A DNA stretch of 64,000 bases from Gemmatimonadota bacterium (GTDB taxonomy: Bacteria > Gemmatimonadota > Gemmatimonadetes > Gemmatimonadales > GWC2-71-9), in contig JANYLJ010000046.1 in assembly GCA_025357945.1 (NCBI GenBank), positions 62,001 to 126,000 on the forward strand. The letters run 5' to 3'. Under the pieces are notes generated by a model. That model was not told the DNA's origin, did not search any database, and worked only from the letters and a program-made list of their open reading frames with translations. The first letter of the stretch is position 1. Each line of letters starts with the position of its first letter. Of this stretch, positions 31,326 to 41,970 are shown one piece after another. A program made the translations under genes and the position numbers.

Positions 31326-33130
31326 ACGAGCGCATGTTGCGGGGTGTCGGCGTGTCACCCGGTGTCGCGTTCGCACCGGCGTTGGTCGTCCGGTGGGCGT
31401 TTCCCGAGATCCCCGAGCGGACGATTTCACCAGCGGAGTTCGATACCGAGGTGGCGCGACTGCACCAGGCGGTGCAGGCCGTCGTCGACCAGCTCGCGGC
31501 GCTCCGGCTGCGCACGCTGCAGCGCGCGGGGCCCGAAGCCGCCGGCATTTTCGACGCCCAGATCATGATGGTCCAGGACGGAGACTTCCTGGCGGGTGTC
31601 GAGTCACTGATTCGCAAGAACCTGTTGTCGGCGGAAAGCGCCTACGAGTTCAAGGCGCTGGATCTTCGGAACACGTGGCAGAACGCTCGCCAGTCGTTCC
31701 TGCGGGATCGACTGGCCGACCTTAACGCGATCCAGCTGCGGATGTTGCTGCACTTGCTGGGGCGCAGTGCGGACGATGCGTGGCTCGGCGAAGTCCAGGA
31801 ACCGGTCGTACTGGTCGCCCACGAACTCTCACCGGGGCTGACGGTCCAGCTCGATCGCGACCATGTGGCGGGACTGATCAGCGAGGAAGGGACGCGCACG
31901 TCGCACGCAGCGATCCTGGCACATTCCCTGGGTATTCCGGCGGTGATGGGCGTCGCGGGGGCGCTGGACCGCATCGCCGATGGCACCAGCGTGTTGCTCG
32001 ACGGGCAGACGGGCCAGATCCTGCTCGAGCCCACCCCCGATGAAATGGAAGCGGCCCGATTGCAGGCGGTGCGTCGCCACCGGCTCGAGGTGCAGCTGGA
32101 GAGCATCGCGACCGAGCCGGCCACGACGCCCGATGGCGCATCGATCGTATTGCAGGGCAACGTCGACCTGCCCGAGGAGATTGAGGTCGCGCTGCGGCAC
32201 GGCGCGGAGGGCGTCGGCCTGCTGCGAACGGAATTCCTCATTACCGGTCGCACGTCACTGCCGAGCGAGGACGAGCAGACGGACTACTACCGTCGGGTCA
32301 GCGCGGCGTTCGCGGGGCATCCGGTGGTGATTCGCACCTACGATCTCGGCGGCGACAAGTTCCCGGCAGCCTTCGTGGCACCCCACGAGCCGAACCCGTT
32401 CCTCGGCTGGCGTTCGATTCGCGTCTGCCTCGATCAGCCGGAGATCTTCCGGCCGCAGTTGCGGGCAATTCTCCGCGCCGCCGTCGACCGTCACATCTGG
32501 TTGATGTTGCCAATGGTGATCTCCCTCGACGAGCTCGCCGAGTCGAAGGCATTGCTTGCGGAGGAAGCGGCAGCGCTGCGAAGCGCCGGGACACGGGCGG
32601 CCGATGACGTGCCGGTAGGCGTGATGATCGAGACCCCCGCGGCGGTGATACTCGCCGACGAGTTCGCGCGTGCCGCCGCGTTCCTGAGCGTGGGCAGCAA
32701 CGATCTCACCCAGTACACGCTTGCGGTCGACCGGAGCAACGCCCGGCTCGCGAGCCGGTTCGCGCCGCTCCATCCCGCGGTCGTGCGCCAGTTGTCCCAG
32801 GTGCGCGAGGCGGCGGCGCGCGCCGGGATCCCGGCATCGGTGTGCGGCGAGATGGCGTCCGACCCCGTCGCTGTGGTGTTGTTGCTGGGGCTCGGGTACA
32901 CCCGACTCAGCACGGCACCGCCAGCGATCCCGCTGGTCAAGTGGGTGGTGCGGAACCTTCCGGTGACCGCCGCCCGCGAAGCCGCTGCGCTGGCGGTGCG
33001 CGCCACCACCACCGACGAGGTGCACGAGGTGCTCCGTCATGCGCTCGGTCGCCATGTGGACCTGCGCCTGGTCGACCCATCGAGTGCGTTGCCGCGCCCT
33101 TCCGTCGGCGCTACCTTGCGCCGCAGTTGA
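31322..33130 (+). CDS. ptsI: PTS enzyme I (phosphoenolpyruvate-protein phosphotransferase)
   Basis: EI takes phosphate from PEP and gives it to HPr. At 602 aa the N-terminal domain has the active His195 in [19 protein letters not shown]. The PEP-binding barrel has [17 protein letters not shown]-like [13 protein letters not shown] and [18 protein letters not shown]. The C-terminal Cys is in [14 protein letters not shown] 31322 overlaps ptsH. It ends the PTS block; metK follows after 40 bp. Confidence 0.95.
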
Positions 33131-33170
33131 TGAGTGTTCTCCCCATCTCGAACGCGGTGACGGTCGCATC

Positions 33171-36659
<3,489 letters not shown>

Positions 36660-36748: not shown

Positions 36749-36776
36749 TTGCGGCCGAATAGCTTCGCCCTACAAT
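36749..36776 (+). promoter_or_regulatory. Putative sigma-70-type promoter of the B12 operon
   Basis: TTGCGG (36749-36754) and TACAAT (36771-36776) are separated by 16 bp. The predicted transcript start near 36783 falls 5 nt before the riboswitch P1 helix, which fits the expected architecture. No other strong promoter was seen in the 36660-36785 stretch. Confidence 0.5.
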
Positions 36777-36787
36777 CGATTTTCGTT

Positions 36788-36938
36788 CGCGAACGGGGAC
36801 GCTCGGAAGACCGGTGCAAGACCGGCGCGGCCCCGCCACTGTAACGGGCAGCTGTACCACCGTCGCTCACCATGCCACTGGGTTGATCCCGGGAAGGCGA
36901 GCGCCGGCGCCCGAAGCCAGGAGACCTCTCCGTTCGCG
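36788..36938 (+). ncRNA. Cobalamin (AdoCbl-type) riboswitch aptamer
   Basis: The 5' region GACCGGTGCAAGACCGGCGC, the CCCCGCCACTGTAACGG core (GCCACTG at 36835-36841) and the B12 box GAAGCCAGGAGACC (36913-36926) are hallmark elements. A perfect 9-bp P1 helix joins CGCGAACGG (36788-36796) and CCGTTCGCG (36930-36938). It binds adenosyl- or methylcobalamin and controls the operon for B12 import just downstream. Class was judged by motif only. Confidence 0.95.
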
Positions 36939-37019
36939 CCACCAGCACACCCTCGGGGGAGGGAATGGTGGCGTGGTCGCTGGCACTGCCGCCATCCGCG
37001 GTGGTCTCTCGCCTCCTCG

Positions 37020-37052
37020 CCCGTCTCACCCCCAGGGAGAGACGGGTTTTTT
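37020..37052 (+). terminator. Rho-independent terminator, riboswitch expression platform
   Basis: CCCGTCTC (37020-37027) pairs perfectly with GAGACGGG (37039-37046), followed by six T. This intrinsic terminator ends 2 nt before the proposed btuC-like TTG start. Upstream, GAGACC of the B12 box (36921-36926) can pair with GGTCTC at 37003-37008, giving a candidate ligand-dependent switch. A smaller CCCTC/GAGGG hairpin lies at 36950-36963. Confidence 0.85.
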
Positions 37053-37053
37053 C

Positions 37054-38049
37054 TTGGGAACTTCCGGCACCACTCGCTCCCCCATCGCGTTGCCGATCCT
37101 CGGGATCGGCGCGCTGGCGGCGGGTGTACTGGCCATGCTCCTGGGTGCGATCCCGCTCTCCCCCGGGGCGGTGTTCGCGGCACTTCACGATGCCAATGCG
37201 CCCGATGCGGCGATCGTGCGCGAGCTGCGGTTGCCGCGCGTGTTGCTGGCGTTCGGGGTGGGCGGCGCGCTCGCCGTCGCCGGCGCATCGCTGCAGGCAC
37301 TGCTCCGCAATCCGCTGGCGGAACCATGGCTCCTGGGCCTCTCGGGCGGCGCATCGCTCGGGGCGGTACTCGCGGTGGTGATCGGCTTGCCGCTCGGCTG
37401 GAGCGTCGCGGCGTGCGCGACGGTCGGTGCCCTCGCGGCGATGGCGCTGGTGTACCGGATCAGCGTCGTCGCCGGACGACGGCTCGACCCGCGAATCCTG
37501 TTGCTCGCGGGCGTGGTGGTCGGCGCATTCACCGCGGCGATCACATCGGCGCTACTCGTCATCGCCGACCCGTTCACCTTCCATTCAGCCACGGTGTGGC
37601 TGTTCGGCGGTTTCGGCCGGTCGAGCTGGGACATGCTCTGGCACTTCGTGGCCGTGGCGGCGTTGCCGCTCGCCCTGCTCTGGTGGCTCTCGCGTTCGCT
37701 CGACCTGCTGGCGCTCGGTGATGACAGCGCGGCCACGCTCGGTGTGGATGTCGAGGGGACGCGCCGCCTGATCATCGTCGCGACGTCCGTGCTCACGGCC
37801 GCGACCGTGGCCGCTGCGGGCGTCATCGGATTTGTCGGCCTGGTGGTACCGCATGCGCTACGCAGCATCGTGGGACCGCTGCATCGCTCCCTGCTTCCGG
37901 CGGTGTTCATCGCCGGCGGTGCGTTCACGGTTCTTGCCGACATGGTGGCGCGGACGGTACTGCGGCCGGCGGAGCTACCGGTCGGCGTGGTCACGGCGTT
38001 GATCGGGGTACCGGTGTTTGCGGTGCTGTTGCGCCGAAGCCTGCGATGA
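37054..38049 (+). CDS. B12-type ABC transporter permease (FecCD family)
   Basis: This inner-membrane permease, likely BtuC-like, has ~10 hydrophobic segments. It includes LPRVLLAFGVGGALAVAGAS, LQALLRNPLAEPWLLGLSGG and GFVGLVVPHALRSIVGP, all FecCD signatures. The start is TTG 37054, directly after the terminator (331 aa); TTG 37090 is an alternative, and no ATG or GTG precedes the first helix. The only upstream purine run, AGGGAGAG (37034-37041), sits inside the terminator arm. The riboswitch supports cobalamin over iron as substrate. Confidence 0.85.
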   Translation: MGTSGTTRSPIALPILGIGALAAGVLAMLLGAIPLSPGAVFAALHDANAPDAAIVRELRLPRVLLAFGVGGALAVAGASLQALLRNPLAEPWLLGLSGGASLGAVLAVVIGLPLGWSVAACATVGALAAMALVYRISVVAGRRLDPRILLLAGVVVGAFTAAITSALLVIADPFTFHSATVWLFGGFGRSSWDMLWHFVAVAALPLALLWWLSRSLDLLALGDDSAATLGVDVEGTRRLIIVATSVLTAATVAAAGVIGFVGLVVPHALRSIVGPLHRSLLPAVFIAGGAFTVLADMVARTVLRPAELPVGVVTALIGVPVFAVLLRRSLR

Positions 38050-38843
38050 GGCTCGCGGCGTCCAGCGTGACCGTCCAATATCCCGGTGCCGCGGTGCCGG
38101 CCCTCGACGAGGTGTCCTTCGGCGTGTCGGGCGGCGAGCTCGTGGCTGTTGTCGGCCCCAATGGGAGCGGCAAGACCACGCTGTTGCGCACGCTACTGGG
38201 ACTGACGCGGCCCCAGTCCGGCGTCGTCCGCCTGGATGATCGCGACATCGGTACCTGGACCCGGCGCGCACTCGCCGGGGTGATTGGCGCGCTGCCACAG
38301 CGAGAGGAACCGGCGTTTCCGCTCACCGTGCGCGAGGTGGTGTTAATGGGGCGCTGGGCCAGGCTCGGCCCGACCGCTGCGATCACGGCGGATGACGAGG
38401 CGGCGATTGCCGGTGCGCTCGCGCGCTGCGATGTCACCGGATTCGAGGATCGTGGCATCGAGACGCTTTCCGGCGGCGAGTGGCAGCGCGTCCGCGTTGC
38501 GCGCGCCCTGGCAGCAATGCCGCGACTCCTCCTGCTCGACGAACCGACGGCGGCACTCGACATCGGCCACGAGATGGCGCTGTTCGAACTGCTGCGCCAG
38601 CTCGTGGGCGACGGGCTTGGCGTGCTGGTCATCACGCACCACCTCAACCTGGCGGCGCGCTACGCCGACCGGCTGGTATTGCTCGATCGCGGCCGGGTCG
38701 TCGCCGATGGACCGCCAAACGCAGTGCTCCGCGCCGACCTGGTGGCCGCGGTGTTCGAGTGGCCGGTGGCGGTGGTGCCGTGGCGCGATGGCACGTCGCA
38801 GGTGCTGCCATTGAAAAGGAACGAAGAACGCCGTGCGCCGTGA
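38046..38843 (+). CDS. B12-type ABC transporter ATPase
   Basis: The 265-aa ATP-binding subunit powers the adjacent permease. It has Walker A GPNGSGKTTLL, the signature LSGGEWQRVRVARAL, Walker B LLLLDEPTAALD and switch His VLVITHHLNLA. FecE/BtuD/HmuV subfamily assignment comes from its partner. ATG 38046 overlaps the permease by 4 bp. No BtuF substrate-binding gene is in the operon. Confidence 0.9.
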   Translation: MRLAASSVTVQYPGAAVPALDEVSFGVSGGELVAVVGPNGSGKTTLLRTLLGLTRPQSGVVRLDDRDIGTWTRRALAGVIGALPQREEPAFPLTVREVVLMGRWARLGPTAAITADDEAAIAGALARCDVTGFEDRGIETLSGGEWQRVRVARALAAMPRLLLLDEPTAALDIGHEMALFELLRQLVGDGLGVLVITHHLNLAARYADRLVLLDRGRVVADGPPNAVLRADLVAAVFEWPVAVVPWRDGTSQVLPLKRNEERRAP

Positions 38844-38858
38844 GCCCGTGACGCCGCG

Positions 38859-38881
38859 TTCGCGTGTGTGGCGCACGCGAA
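38859..38881 (+). other. Intercistronic hairpin between the ATPase and receptor genes
   Basis: TTCGCGTG (38859-38866) pairs perfectly with CACGCGAA (38874-38881) around a 7-nt loop in the 90-bp gap. There is no T-run, so it may be an mRNA-processing or stability element or a weak attenuator. Confidence 0.35.
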
Positions 38882-38933
38882 GGTGGATTCCGTGCTCATG
38901 GCGCACAACCCGTCACGCAAGAGGATGGCCACT

Positions 38934-40889
38934 GTGAACAGCAATCTTCGCGTTACCGTATTGCTCGCGCTGTTCGTGCCGGCGGCCGCTACTGCGCAAT
39001 CCGACACCACCCATCTCGGCGACCTCGTGGTCACCGCGACCCGGGTGCCGACGACCGCCAGTGACATCGCCGCCGCCACGACCGTGATTCGCGGCGACGA
39101 TCTCCGCGCGCGCGGCGTGCAGCTCGTGCTCGACGCGTTGCGCGAGGTGCCCGGGATGATGGTGGTGCAGGCCGGCTCGTATGGCGCGCAGACGTCGGTA
39201 TTTCTCCGGGGCGGCCAGAGCGACTACGTCAAGGTGCTGCTCGACGGCGTACCACTCAATCGGCCCGGCGGCAGCATCAACTGGGCGAACCTGACGACGG
39301 TCGATCTCGACCGGATCGAAATCGTGCGTGGCCCGGCGAGCGTGCTCTACGGCGCCGACGCGATGAGCGGGGTGGTACAGCTGTTCACGCGCGCCGCCAG
39401 TGCGGTACCGACGGTGGTGGTGGCGGCACGCGGCGGGACATTCGCGAGCACGGACTTCAATGGCCACCTCTCGCTTGTCGACCGAGCATGGTCACTCAGC
39501 GCCACCGCATCGCGCGAAGCGACCGACGGCAGTTACGCCTTCAACAGCGGGTATCGCAACGCTGTCGGCTCCGTTCGGCTCGGGCTCGATCGTGGATCGA
39601 GCGGCCGCGCCGCATTCACGCTGCGGTACGGCAGCGGGATCGCGCACTTTCCCACGGACGGCGGCGGCGCCCCGGTCGATCACAACCAGTTCACCACCGA
39701 GAAGACGCTCGCCATAGGCCTCGATGCGTCGTGGGCGACCGGTACCAGCGGCACCTTCAATGTCCACGGCTTCGCCTCCCGGCTCAACGAAGGGTACACC
39801 AACCGCGCCGATACCCCGGCAGACACGACGGGCTTTGACTTCGTGGACGATCGCAGCAGCATCACCTGGCGCCGCGGGATCGATATCCGCCTCGATCGCC
39901 ACGTGCGCGGGAGCCTGGTGTCCCTCGGCGTAGGGCTCGAGCATGAAAACGACGACGAACACGACGTCGGCGTCTCCAACTTCGGCTTTGGCGTGTCGCA
40001 CGACACGTCGGCGTTTAGTGGTGATCGCAGCACGCGCAACGCGTACATCCAACTGCTGTCGGAGCCGGGCGCGACGGTGTCGACCCAGGCCGGCGTGCGG
40101 CTCGACGACAACTCGGCCTTCGGCACCTTCACGACCTGGCGCGTCGGCGCGACGTGGCATGTTGGCGCCGATACGAGGCTGTGGGTCGCGGCTGGAACCG
40201 CGTTCAAGGCGCCGACCTTTTCGCAGCTCTTTGCCGCGAGTGCATTCGAGGTCGGCAATCCGGCGCTTGCGCCGGAGCGGAGCAAAAACAGCGAGGTCGG
40301 TCTCGAGAGGACGTCCGCCAACCATCACGTCACGCTGGCGGTCACCGCATTCTGGCAGCAGTTCCGCGACCTGATTCAGTACGTCGGTGCGGCGCCGGGC
40401 CAGCCCACCTACGTGAACCTGGGCGGCGCGAACGCTCGCGGCGTGGAGCTCACGGTGGTCGCGAATCCGTCGCCGCGGCTGACCCTCAGCGCGCACTGGA
40501 CCTGGCTCCATACCGAGGTGACGGACACGGGTTCCGCCGCTTCGTTGAGCTTTCAGCAGGGGGCATCGCTGATCCGCCGGCCCGGATCGAGCGGCGGGGG
40601 GACGGCGGCATACCGCTGGCACGGCCTGACGCTCGCCGGGACCGCCACCCGAACCGGGACACGCGATGACGTCGATTTCGCCGGGTTCCCGGGAACTCGG
40701 GTTATTTTACCAGCATACACCACGTTGGACCTGTCCCTCGACGCGCCGATTCGGCGCAGCGCGGGCCGGTCCCTCGGCATCGACCTGACGCTGCGCGGCG
40801 AAAATCTCTTCAACGCTGTCTACCAGCAGACGGTTGGCTTTCCAGGCCGCGGCCGCACCCTGTTCGCCGGGGGCCGCGCCCGGTTCTGA
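38934..40889 (+). CDS. TonB-dependent outer-membrane receptor, BtuB-like
   Basis: The ~651-aa outer-membrane receptor imports its ligand using TonB energy. A signal peptide ends at ATAQS. TonB box-like LGDLVVTATRVP is followed by a plug domain with FLRGGQSDYVKVLLDG and IEIVRGPASVLYGADAMSG, and then a 22-strand-type barrel ending LFAGGRARF. GTG 38934 is preferred because AAGAGGA (38919-38925) is 8 nt upstream; ATG 38925 is an alternative. Riboswitch, permease and ATPase upstream argue for cobalamin. Confidence 0.9.
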   Translation: MNSNLRVTVLLALFVPAAATAQSDTTHLGDLVVTATRVPTTASDIAAATTVIRGDDLRARGVQLVLDALREVPGMMVVQAGSYGAQTSVFLRGGQSDYVKVLLDGVPLNRPGGSINWANLTTVDLDRIEIVRGPASVLYGADAMSGVVQLFTRAASAVPTVVVAARGGTFASTDFNGHLSLVDRAWSLSATASREATDGSYAFNSGYRNAVGSVRLGLDRGSSGRAAFTLRYGSGIAHFPTDGGGAPVDHNQFTTEKTLAIGLDASWATGTSGTFNVHGFASRLNEGYTNRADTPADTTGFDFVDDRSSITWRRGIDIRLDRHVRGSLVSLGVGLEHENDDEHDVGVSNFGFGVSHDTSAFSGDRSTRNAYIQLLSEPGATVSTQAGVRLDDNSAFGTFTTWRVGATWHVGADTRLWVAAGTAFKAPTFSQLFAASAFEVGNPALAPERSKNSEVGLERTSANHHVTLAVTAFWQQFRDLIQYVGAAPGQPTYVNLGGANARGVELTVVANPSPRLTLSAHWTWLHTEVTDTGSAASLSFQQGASLIRRPGSSGGGTAAYRWHGLTLAGTATRTGTRDDVDFAGFPGTRVILPAYTTLDLSLDAPIRRSAGRSLGIDLTLRGENLFNAVYQQTVGFPGRGRTLFAGGRARF

Positions 40890-40908
40890 GTCCAACGGAG
40901 GGAGCGAC

Positions 40909-41970
40909 ATGCGGCTCGGGCGCTGGGCAGTGCTGGCACTTGGTATCGCGGCCGCCGCGTGCGCGTCGACCATCGGCCCGGTCGTCCCATCGGTGCAGGT
41001 GCTCGTCGTGCTCGACAGCATGGACGATACGCTCCGGATCATTCCGGTCGACACGCCGGACGTCGTCCACAAAGTGGCGCTCAACATCGGTATCGCTTCC
41101 TTCGGCAAACATGCCCTGGCGCTGCGGGGTCAGTTGGCCGCGATCGGCCTCGGCCGAACTGCCCTGCTGTACGACTTGGCTCCGCTGCAGCGCCGGTGCA
41201 GGGTGGACTTCGCCGACACCGTTGGCGTGATTGTATCCCTCGCGTTCGCCGACAACAACGGTCAGGTATACGCGGCCCTTCCGGCGACCAATAATGCCCC
41301 GCACTTCGATCCGACCACCTGCGGCGTGGGCAATGTGCACGTTCGCGGCGGACCGAGTGCCTTTGTCAGCGCCCGATCGACATTTTTCGTGGTGACTGGC
41401 GGCGCCGCCGCGTTCAGCTGGCTCTCGACGACAAACGGCCCGACCAGTGACAACTTGCCGTTGTCGCCCGCAGATTCGATTCCGCTTTCGCTCCCGGGCA
41501 ACGCGAAGGGGGCCGTTTTCGGTTCCGACGGATTCCTGTATGTGATCAACGCGGGAACCGGCCTGCCGAATGCGCGGCTGTCCCAGGTGAATCCCGTGTT
41601 GAGGACCGAGTTGAACGTCATTCCGGGCTTCGGGACACTGCCGCGGTTCATCGCCACCGATGGTGCTGACCGTATCTTCGTCGCGAGCGCGCTCGAAGGG
41701 CTTATGGTGTACAACATCCGCACCAATCAGGTCGAGCGTGGTGCCAACAGTGCGATTCCGCTCTTCGGTACGCCGCGCGGCCTCGCTGCCGACGACCTCG
41801 GGCGAGTGTATGCCCTGATCGCCGGAGCATGCAAAGCTGGCGGTGCCTTGGGAAGCGTCCGCGTCCTCGGTGCCGACCTGGTGTACAAGCGCGTGGTCAA
41901 CGTCGGCGGCTGTCCGGTCGCCGTCGGCGTCACCGACATTCCCGCCACGCTCTACCGCTTCGATAGCTGA
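40909..41970 (+). CDS. Beta-propeller-like lipoprotein of the B12 operon (BtuG-like candidate)
   Basis: The 353-aa product starts at ATG 40909, preceded by CGGAGGGAG. The signal MRLGRWAVLALGIAAAACAS has a lipoprotein-type cysteine (AAAC). The body has recurring strand blocks such as ADNNGQVYAALPAT, GSDGFLYVINAGTG, DGADRIFVASALEGLMVYN and ADDLGRVYALIAG, typical of NHL/YncE propellers. Its place directly after the BtuB-like receptor suggests a surface or periplasmic B12-binding partner comparable to Bacteroides BtuG. That function is inferred from fold pattern and position. recO begins 4 bp later. Confidence 0.7.
   Translation: MRLGRWAVLALGIAAAACASTIGPVVPSVQVLVVLDSMDDTLRIIPVDTPDVVHKVALNIGIASFGKHALALRGQLAAIGLGRTALLYDLAPLQRRCRVDFADTVGVIVSLAFADNNGQVYAALPATNNAPHFDPTTCGVGNVHVRGGPSAFVSARSTFFVVTGGAAAFSWLSTTNGPTSDNLPLSPADSIPLSLPGNAKGAVFGSDGFLYVINAGTGLPNARLSQVNPVLRTELNVIPGFGTLPRFIATDGADRIFVASALEGLMVYNIRTNQVERGANSAIPLFGTPRGLAADDLGRVYALIAGACKAGGALGSVRVLGADLVYKRVVNVGGCPVAVGVTDIPATLYRFDS

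Follow-up and report, generated by a model that had tools for sequence, protein, structure and literature searches.

The lipoprotein encoded at the end of a cobalamin-riboswitch operon in a Gemmatimonadota bacterium is, judged by sequence comparison, a divergent homologue of BtuG of Bacteroidota, and this homology is well supported. We consider it probable that this protein, under control of the riboswitch, captures corrinoids and passes them to the TonB-dependent receptor BtuB. The operon lies in the window analysed here, a stretch of 64,000 nucleotides from a genome (G000, operon on contig G000:C32) that is 99.8% complete. The original prediction had read the order riboswitch, permease, ATPase, TonB receptor and lipoprotein, which matches to RF00174, PF01032, PF00005 and PF07715/PF00593 bore out:

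36779-36946, plus strand: cobalamin riboswitch aptamer (RF00174; cmscan 70.2 bits, E 2.8e-15)
37019-37053, plus strand: intrinsic terminator, 9-bp outer stem followed by U6 (sequence and RNA fold)
37090-38049, plus strand: btuC-type permease (FecCD; PF01032, 2e-88), the sole FecCD protein in the genome
38046-38843, plus strand: btuD-type ABC ATPase (PF00005, 7e-33), overlapping the permease gene
38934-40889, plus strand: BtuB-like TonB-dependent receptor, GTG start (PF07715, plug, and PF00593, barrel)
40909-41970, plus strand: BtuG-like lipoprotein of 353 aa, predicted seven-bladed propeller (AF2, Foldseek, family alignment)

The predicted coordinates were nearly right; the riboswitch start moved, from 36749 to the 36779 given by cmscan. 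A genome-wide scan found this aptamer to be the only cobalamin riboswitch of the genome. Between it and btuC, the hairpin at 37019-37053 folds with -24.5 kcal/mol (z -3.0); it was absent from the list of a simple terminator scan. Since this strong hairpin carries a U tract, the riboswitch probably acts by transcription termination, with the hairpin as its likely switching element. Because the terminator separates the aptamer from btuC, btuC probably starts at TTG 37090, a start deduced from the terminator position and the start of the profile match. The top NCBIfam models of the ATPase were heme and corrinoid ABC ATPases, under their cut-off. E. coli BtuB accounted for the six top PDB matches of the receptor (best 1e-33). 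Among NCBIfam models, TonB-B12 (TIGR01779) scored highest for it, with 236 bits, below the model cut-off of 599.7. The lipoprotein gene begins 19 bases past the receptor stop codon. Directly upstream of the riboswitch, a gene at 35736-36659 that is retained in most loci of the same family encodes a membrane protein; it shows a weak match to a carboxypeptidase-regulatory-like domain and has no known family at threshold. Still further upstream (33039-35749), ORFs resembling by eye S-adenosylmethionine synthetase and adenosylhomocysteine hydrolase fit a methionine-cycle neighbourhood.

The lipoprotein carries a signal peptide and the lipobox AAAC18. The lipid cysteine, Cys18, is invariant in alignments A1 and A3, and nearly all aligned members possess one. 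Cys308 and Cys335 are also invariant in the alignment of the bacterium's own family (A1), as is the corresponding cysteine pair in the alignment from other families. Of 102 genomes from the bacterium's own family, 53 encode relatives, and full-length relatives occur widely in other families of Gemmatimonadota; profile-profile comparison showed the two subgroups to be one protein family (E 3e-74). Neither Pfam nor NCBIfam assigned the lipoprotein to a family at threshold, and no relative was found in the plasmid collection searched. A first search of genome contigs with a broad lipoprotein alignment gave a pattern that was not usable. At two loci the gene is present in two tandem copies (L116 3056-5310 and L066 44-2322), the L116 pair standing behind a single btuB.

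The NHL/YncE-like repeats originally noticed gave a weak signal in the single sequence (one sub-threshold NHL match, E 0.027), while the propeller itself was confirmed by the AF2 model and the family profile. Computed from an alignment of 24 natural sequences, 23 of them relatives, the model reached a confident pLDDT of 87.3 and pTM of 0.86. Counting its strands gives seven blades, the first of which is completed by the C-terminal strand; a single-sequence fold (pLDDT 33) was set aside. Foldseek placed BtuG2/BtuG3-type Bacteroides structures at ranks 1-9 of 1434 significant PDB matches, above every other propeller, with moderate TM-scores of 0.67-0.71 by query length and about 12% identity. 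The prediction of a BtuG-like propeller was therefore upheld by structure prediction.

In order to survey the genomic context, profiles of the operon proteins were run over fetched Gemmatimonadota loci. In families other than the bacterium's own, a TonB receptor gene immediately precedes the lipoprotein gene in 32/32 loci with at least 1 kb upstream, and btuFCD is often not nearby. Within the family, 41 of 42 loci have the gene as part of the btu operon. The operon gene closest to it encodes the receptor in 23/42 and the ATPase in 15/42; an extra binding protein stands between in 3/42, and at the remaining locus another copy of the lipoprotein gene is all that precedes it. RF00174 was found upstream of the lipoprotein operon in the majority of loci with enough sequence to reveal it. 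The adjacency expected in related genomes was thus observed, and the homologues showed no conserved context foreign to B12. At L071 (3143-3808), L095 (6458-7123) and L135 (5619-6284) we noted a second PF01497-type binding protein, from another clade, between btuB and the lipoprotein gene. Several genera have lost btuB from the operon and retain the lipoprotein gene with btuFCD; in such cases a TonB receptor is encoded at another locus, which usually has a riboswitch too. In the sister species G076 (L034, 7046-7261), a C-terminal remnant of btuB still separates btuD from the lipoprotein gene, and an intact receptor gene is kept at a separate locus (L090). Since some relatives conversely have btuB with no lipoprotein gene behind it, the pairing is not obligate.

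These displaced receptor genes bear on the side of the outer membrane that the lipoprotein faces. It might look into the periplasm and relay B12 between BtuB and BtuF instead of forming a surface lid. This arrangement would suit the many genera of the family that keep the gene with btuFCD after the departure of btuB. It would also suit the window protein, in which the sequence at Cys18 reads CASTIGP and no acidic lipoprotein export signal of the Bacteroidota type follows; in other families of Gemmatimonadota, acidic residues do follow the lipid cysteine. Such a signal belongs to the export route of the phylum Bacteroidota rather than to the BtuG fold, yet its absence bars plain BtuG membership. 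Against a relay, btuB is the constant neighbour outside the family (32/32), where btuFCD is often distant, and Bacteroides displays the homologous BtuG on its cell surface (PMC6143338). We therefore regard a periplasmic relay as unlikely and exposure at the cell surface as the better reading.

The relationship to BtuG was examined by profile comparisons. In PDB searches with family profiles, BtuG1 (8blw, 8ptd, 8ptf) was the top or the second natural match (6.6e-7 and 2.3e-10). In the run at 2.3e-10 only an archaeal YVTN propeller outscored it, and most other significant matches were BtuG entries. The hhalign comparison with Bacteroidota BtuG gave E 2.1e-32 over 329 columns, co-linear from the lipobox to the C-terminus, and the own-family alignment gave 2.9e-25; controls with a propeller family gave 4e-8, in a shifted register, and 6e-7. 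In a blind test, 296 genomes belonging to the same phylum as a record titled 'Bacteroidetes' were searched with a profile of the Gemmatimonadota members from other families. Among the 29 best loci, counted without the entry genome, a TonB receptor gene stood immediately 5' of the propeller gene in 25, and at another two the propeller gene came straight after a cobalamin riboswitch. The control query, a single propeller protein encoded in the same genome as the lipoprotein, was run over the same group and gave 0/30 loci adjoining a TonB receptor (Fisher 8e-13). All 20 loci that were extended showed a cobalamin riboswitch, then a TonB receptor, then the propeller, and TonB-B12 was the best model for the five receptors tested. 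The proteins at these loci are BtuG, as their profile matched BtuG1, 2 and 3 over their length at 1e-58 to 1e-65. Two BtuG-like proteins of this phylum (L215 947-2275 and L221 946-2268) lack a lipobox and end in a sequence that looks like a type IX secretion sorting domain.

The entry record itself (L150, 'Bacteroidetes bacterium isolate Ww261') contains a btuB-lipoprotein locus of Gemmatimonadota that matches MAG Ww169. Because a Gemmatimonadetes MAG from that project has the same protein, we read the locus as likely binning contamination rather than a transfer, and we used the record solely to reach its phylum.

A generic YncE/NHL propeller could also have been recruited independently beside BtuB and have converged on BtuG. 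Propellers are easily confused, and the archaeal YVTN protein outscoring BtuG in one profile run, like the matches of the own-family profile to designed propellers, would agree with such an origin. The same-genome control propeller nevertheless behaved otherwise in the PDB, hhalign and blind genome searches, and the BtuG alignment is full length and co-linear. Convergence is disfavoured after this control and appears to us quite improbable. The original prediction had offered an independent or a divergent capture system: full-length homology to Bacteroidota BtuG does not support an independent invention, and the fold, the homology and the conserved B12 context agree with a divergent BtuG-like propeller partner of BtuB outside Bacteroidota.

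Charge and pocket residues of the divergent BtuG homologue were also compared with those of BtuG2. BtuG2 draws B12 via a negative face (PMC10404256). The mature window protein has a net charge of +1, compared to a median of -24 for relatives from other families; a control propeller family is also negative (-18), so that net charge was discarded as an unspecific BtuG marker. Among the pocket aromatics of BtuG2 (Trp194, Trp272, Tyr316 and Tyr335), only the Trp272 position is kept, as Phe, in 15/17 members from other families. It is Leu in the window protein, which keeps none of these aromatics as far as they can be aligned; the positions were mapped by profile alignment only and vary among Bacteroidota BtuG too. 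With its +1 charge, no acidic signal and no aromatic at the Trp272 site, the window lineage looks derived in comparison with the other families, and its corrinoid binding, to go by the sequence, may be weaker or different.

The same pocket residues raise the question of the ligand. XusB, the partner of the TonB receptor XusA, is likewise a seven-bladed propeller lipoprotein forming a lid on its receptor, and its ligand is an iron-siderophore (PMC13142918). A lid of this type, for a siderophore or some other ligand, could sit in a B12 operon by descent only, and would account for the loss of the BtuG2 aromatics. We find this very improbable, because the top fold and profile matches are BtuG, the window gene, like its relatives throughout, is under a cobalamin riboswitch, and the blind search landed on B12 loci. 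No XusB entry appeared among the best PDB matches listed for the lipoprotein family.

The absence of BtuF had been part of the original prediction. It holds for the operon, and no BtuF gene was present in operons of the same genus among the fetched loci; it does not hold for the genome, where exactly one PF01497 protein, of BtuF type, is encoded elsewhere (G000:C62, a contig without riboswitch), which amounts to a relocation. As the genome has exactly one such protein and exactly one FecCD permease (BtuC), the former must serve the latter. In relatives outside the genus, the PF01497 gene comes first in the operon in 26 of 31 own-family loci with 6 kb upstream. In a tree, the relocated proteins of the genus grouped as a single clade within the BtuF group; the operon BtuFs of other families were closer to this clade than those of the own family, and its long branch fits either replacement or fast divergence. 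That the lipoprotein stands in for BtuF as the binding protein of BtuCD, as the BtuF-less operons of the genus might suggest, was rejected as largely refuted and scarcely credible, since the genus-conserved protein at G000:C62 falls inside the BtuF clade and has the single FecCD permease available to it, and since relatives hold BtuF and the lipoprotein in one operon. The genome encodes B12-binding enzyme domains, and the corrin-ring protein CbiC was not found in it, indicating a need for imported B12. Cultured Gemmatimonadota require added B12 (PMC10581226).

For the BtuG homologue we propose the following mechanism, built on the observed riboswitch, gene order, homology, phylum-wide linkage to B12 genes and single BtuC and BtuF-type protein, and on a predicted fold. 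When B12 is scarce, the riboswitch terminator would remain unformed, and btuC, btuD, btuB and the lipoprotein gene would be co-transcribed. The lipoprotein would be anchored in the outer membrane through Cys18. We infer that it is exposed on the outer face, contacts BtuB and binds corrinoids, most likely in the mouth of the propeller, handing them over to BtuB. BtuB would import them using TonB energy, and the BtuF encoded elsewhere would ferry them to BtuCD.

The receptor, permease, ATPase and BtuF-type protein resemble the E. coli BtuBFCD system, which is not known to have a propeller lipoprotein partner. With BtuG1/2/3 and BtuB of Bacteroides thetaiotaomicron (PMC6143338, PMC10404256), the system shares a seven-bladed propeller lipoprotein that gives the top fold match and full-length profile homology, adjacency to btuB and a cobalamin riboswitch. 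It differs in belonging to another phylum, with about 12% identity in structural alignment, in a window protein that is not acidic and is without the Bacteroidota export signal, in an E. coli-like receptor, in forming one operon with btuCD and in the invariant Cys308 and Cys335. BtuG has been reported as exclusive to Bacteroidetes, by BLASTP in gut genomes (PMC6143338), and a full-text literature search returned no publication that mentions both BtuG and Gemmatimonadota.

BtuG homologues now extend to a second phylum, Gemmatimonadota, of the same FCB group as Bacteroidota. Within the scope of the homologue search, Gemmatimonadota and Bacteroidota, this distribution fits either a common FCB ancestor or a later transfer. 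We tentatively raise the possibility, less than even in our judgement, that BtuB-BtuG surface capture predates the split between these phyla; the pair surviving here would then combine an E. coli-like BtuB with a lipoprotein exported by another route, which in the window lineage would do without electrostatic steering. The presence of homologues in a second phylum suggests that capturing B12 with the help of a lipoprotein arose before, and reaches beyond, competition in the gut. The Gemmatimonadota proteins also make it possible to test which features of the BtuG mechanism (charge, pocket, lid or export signal) are essential.
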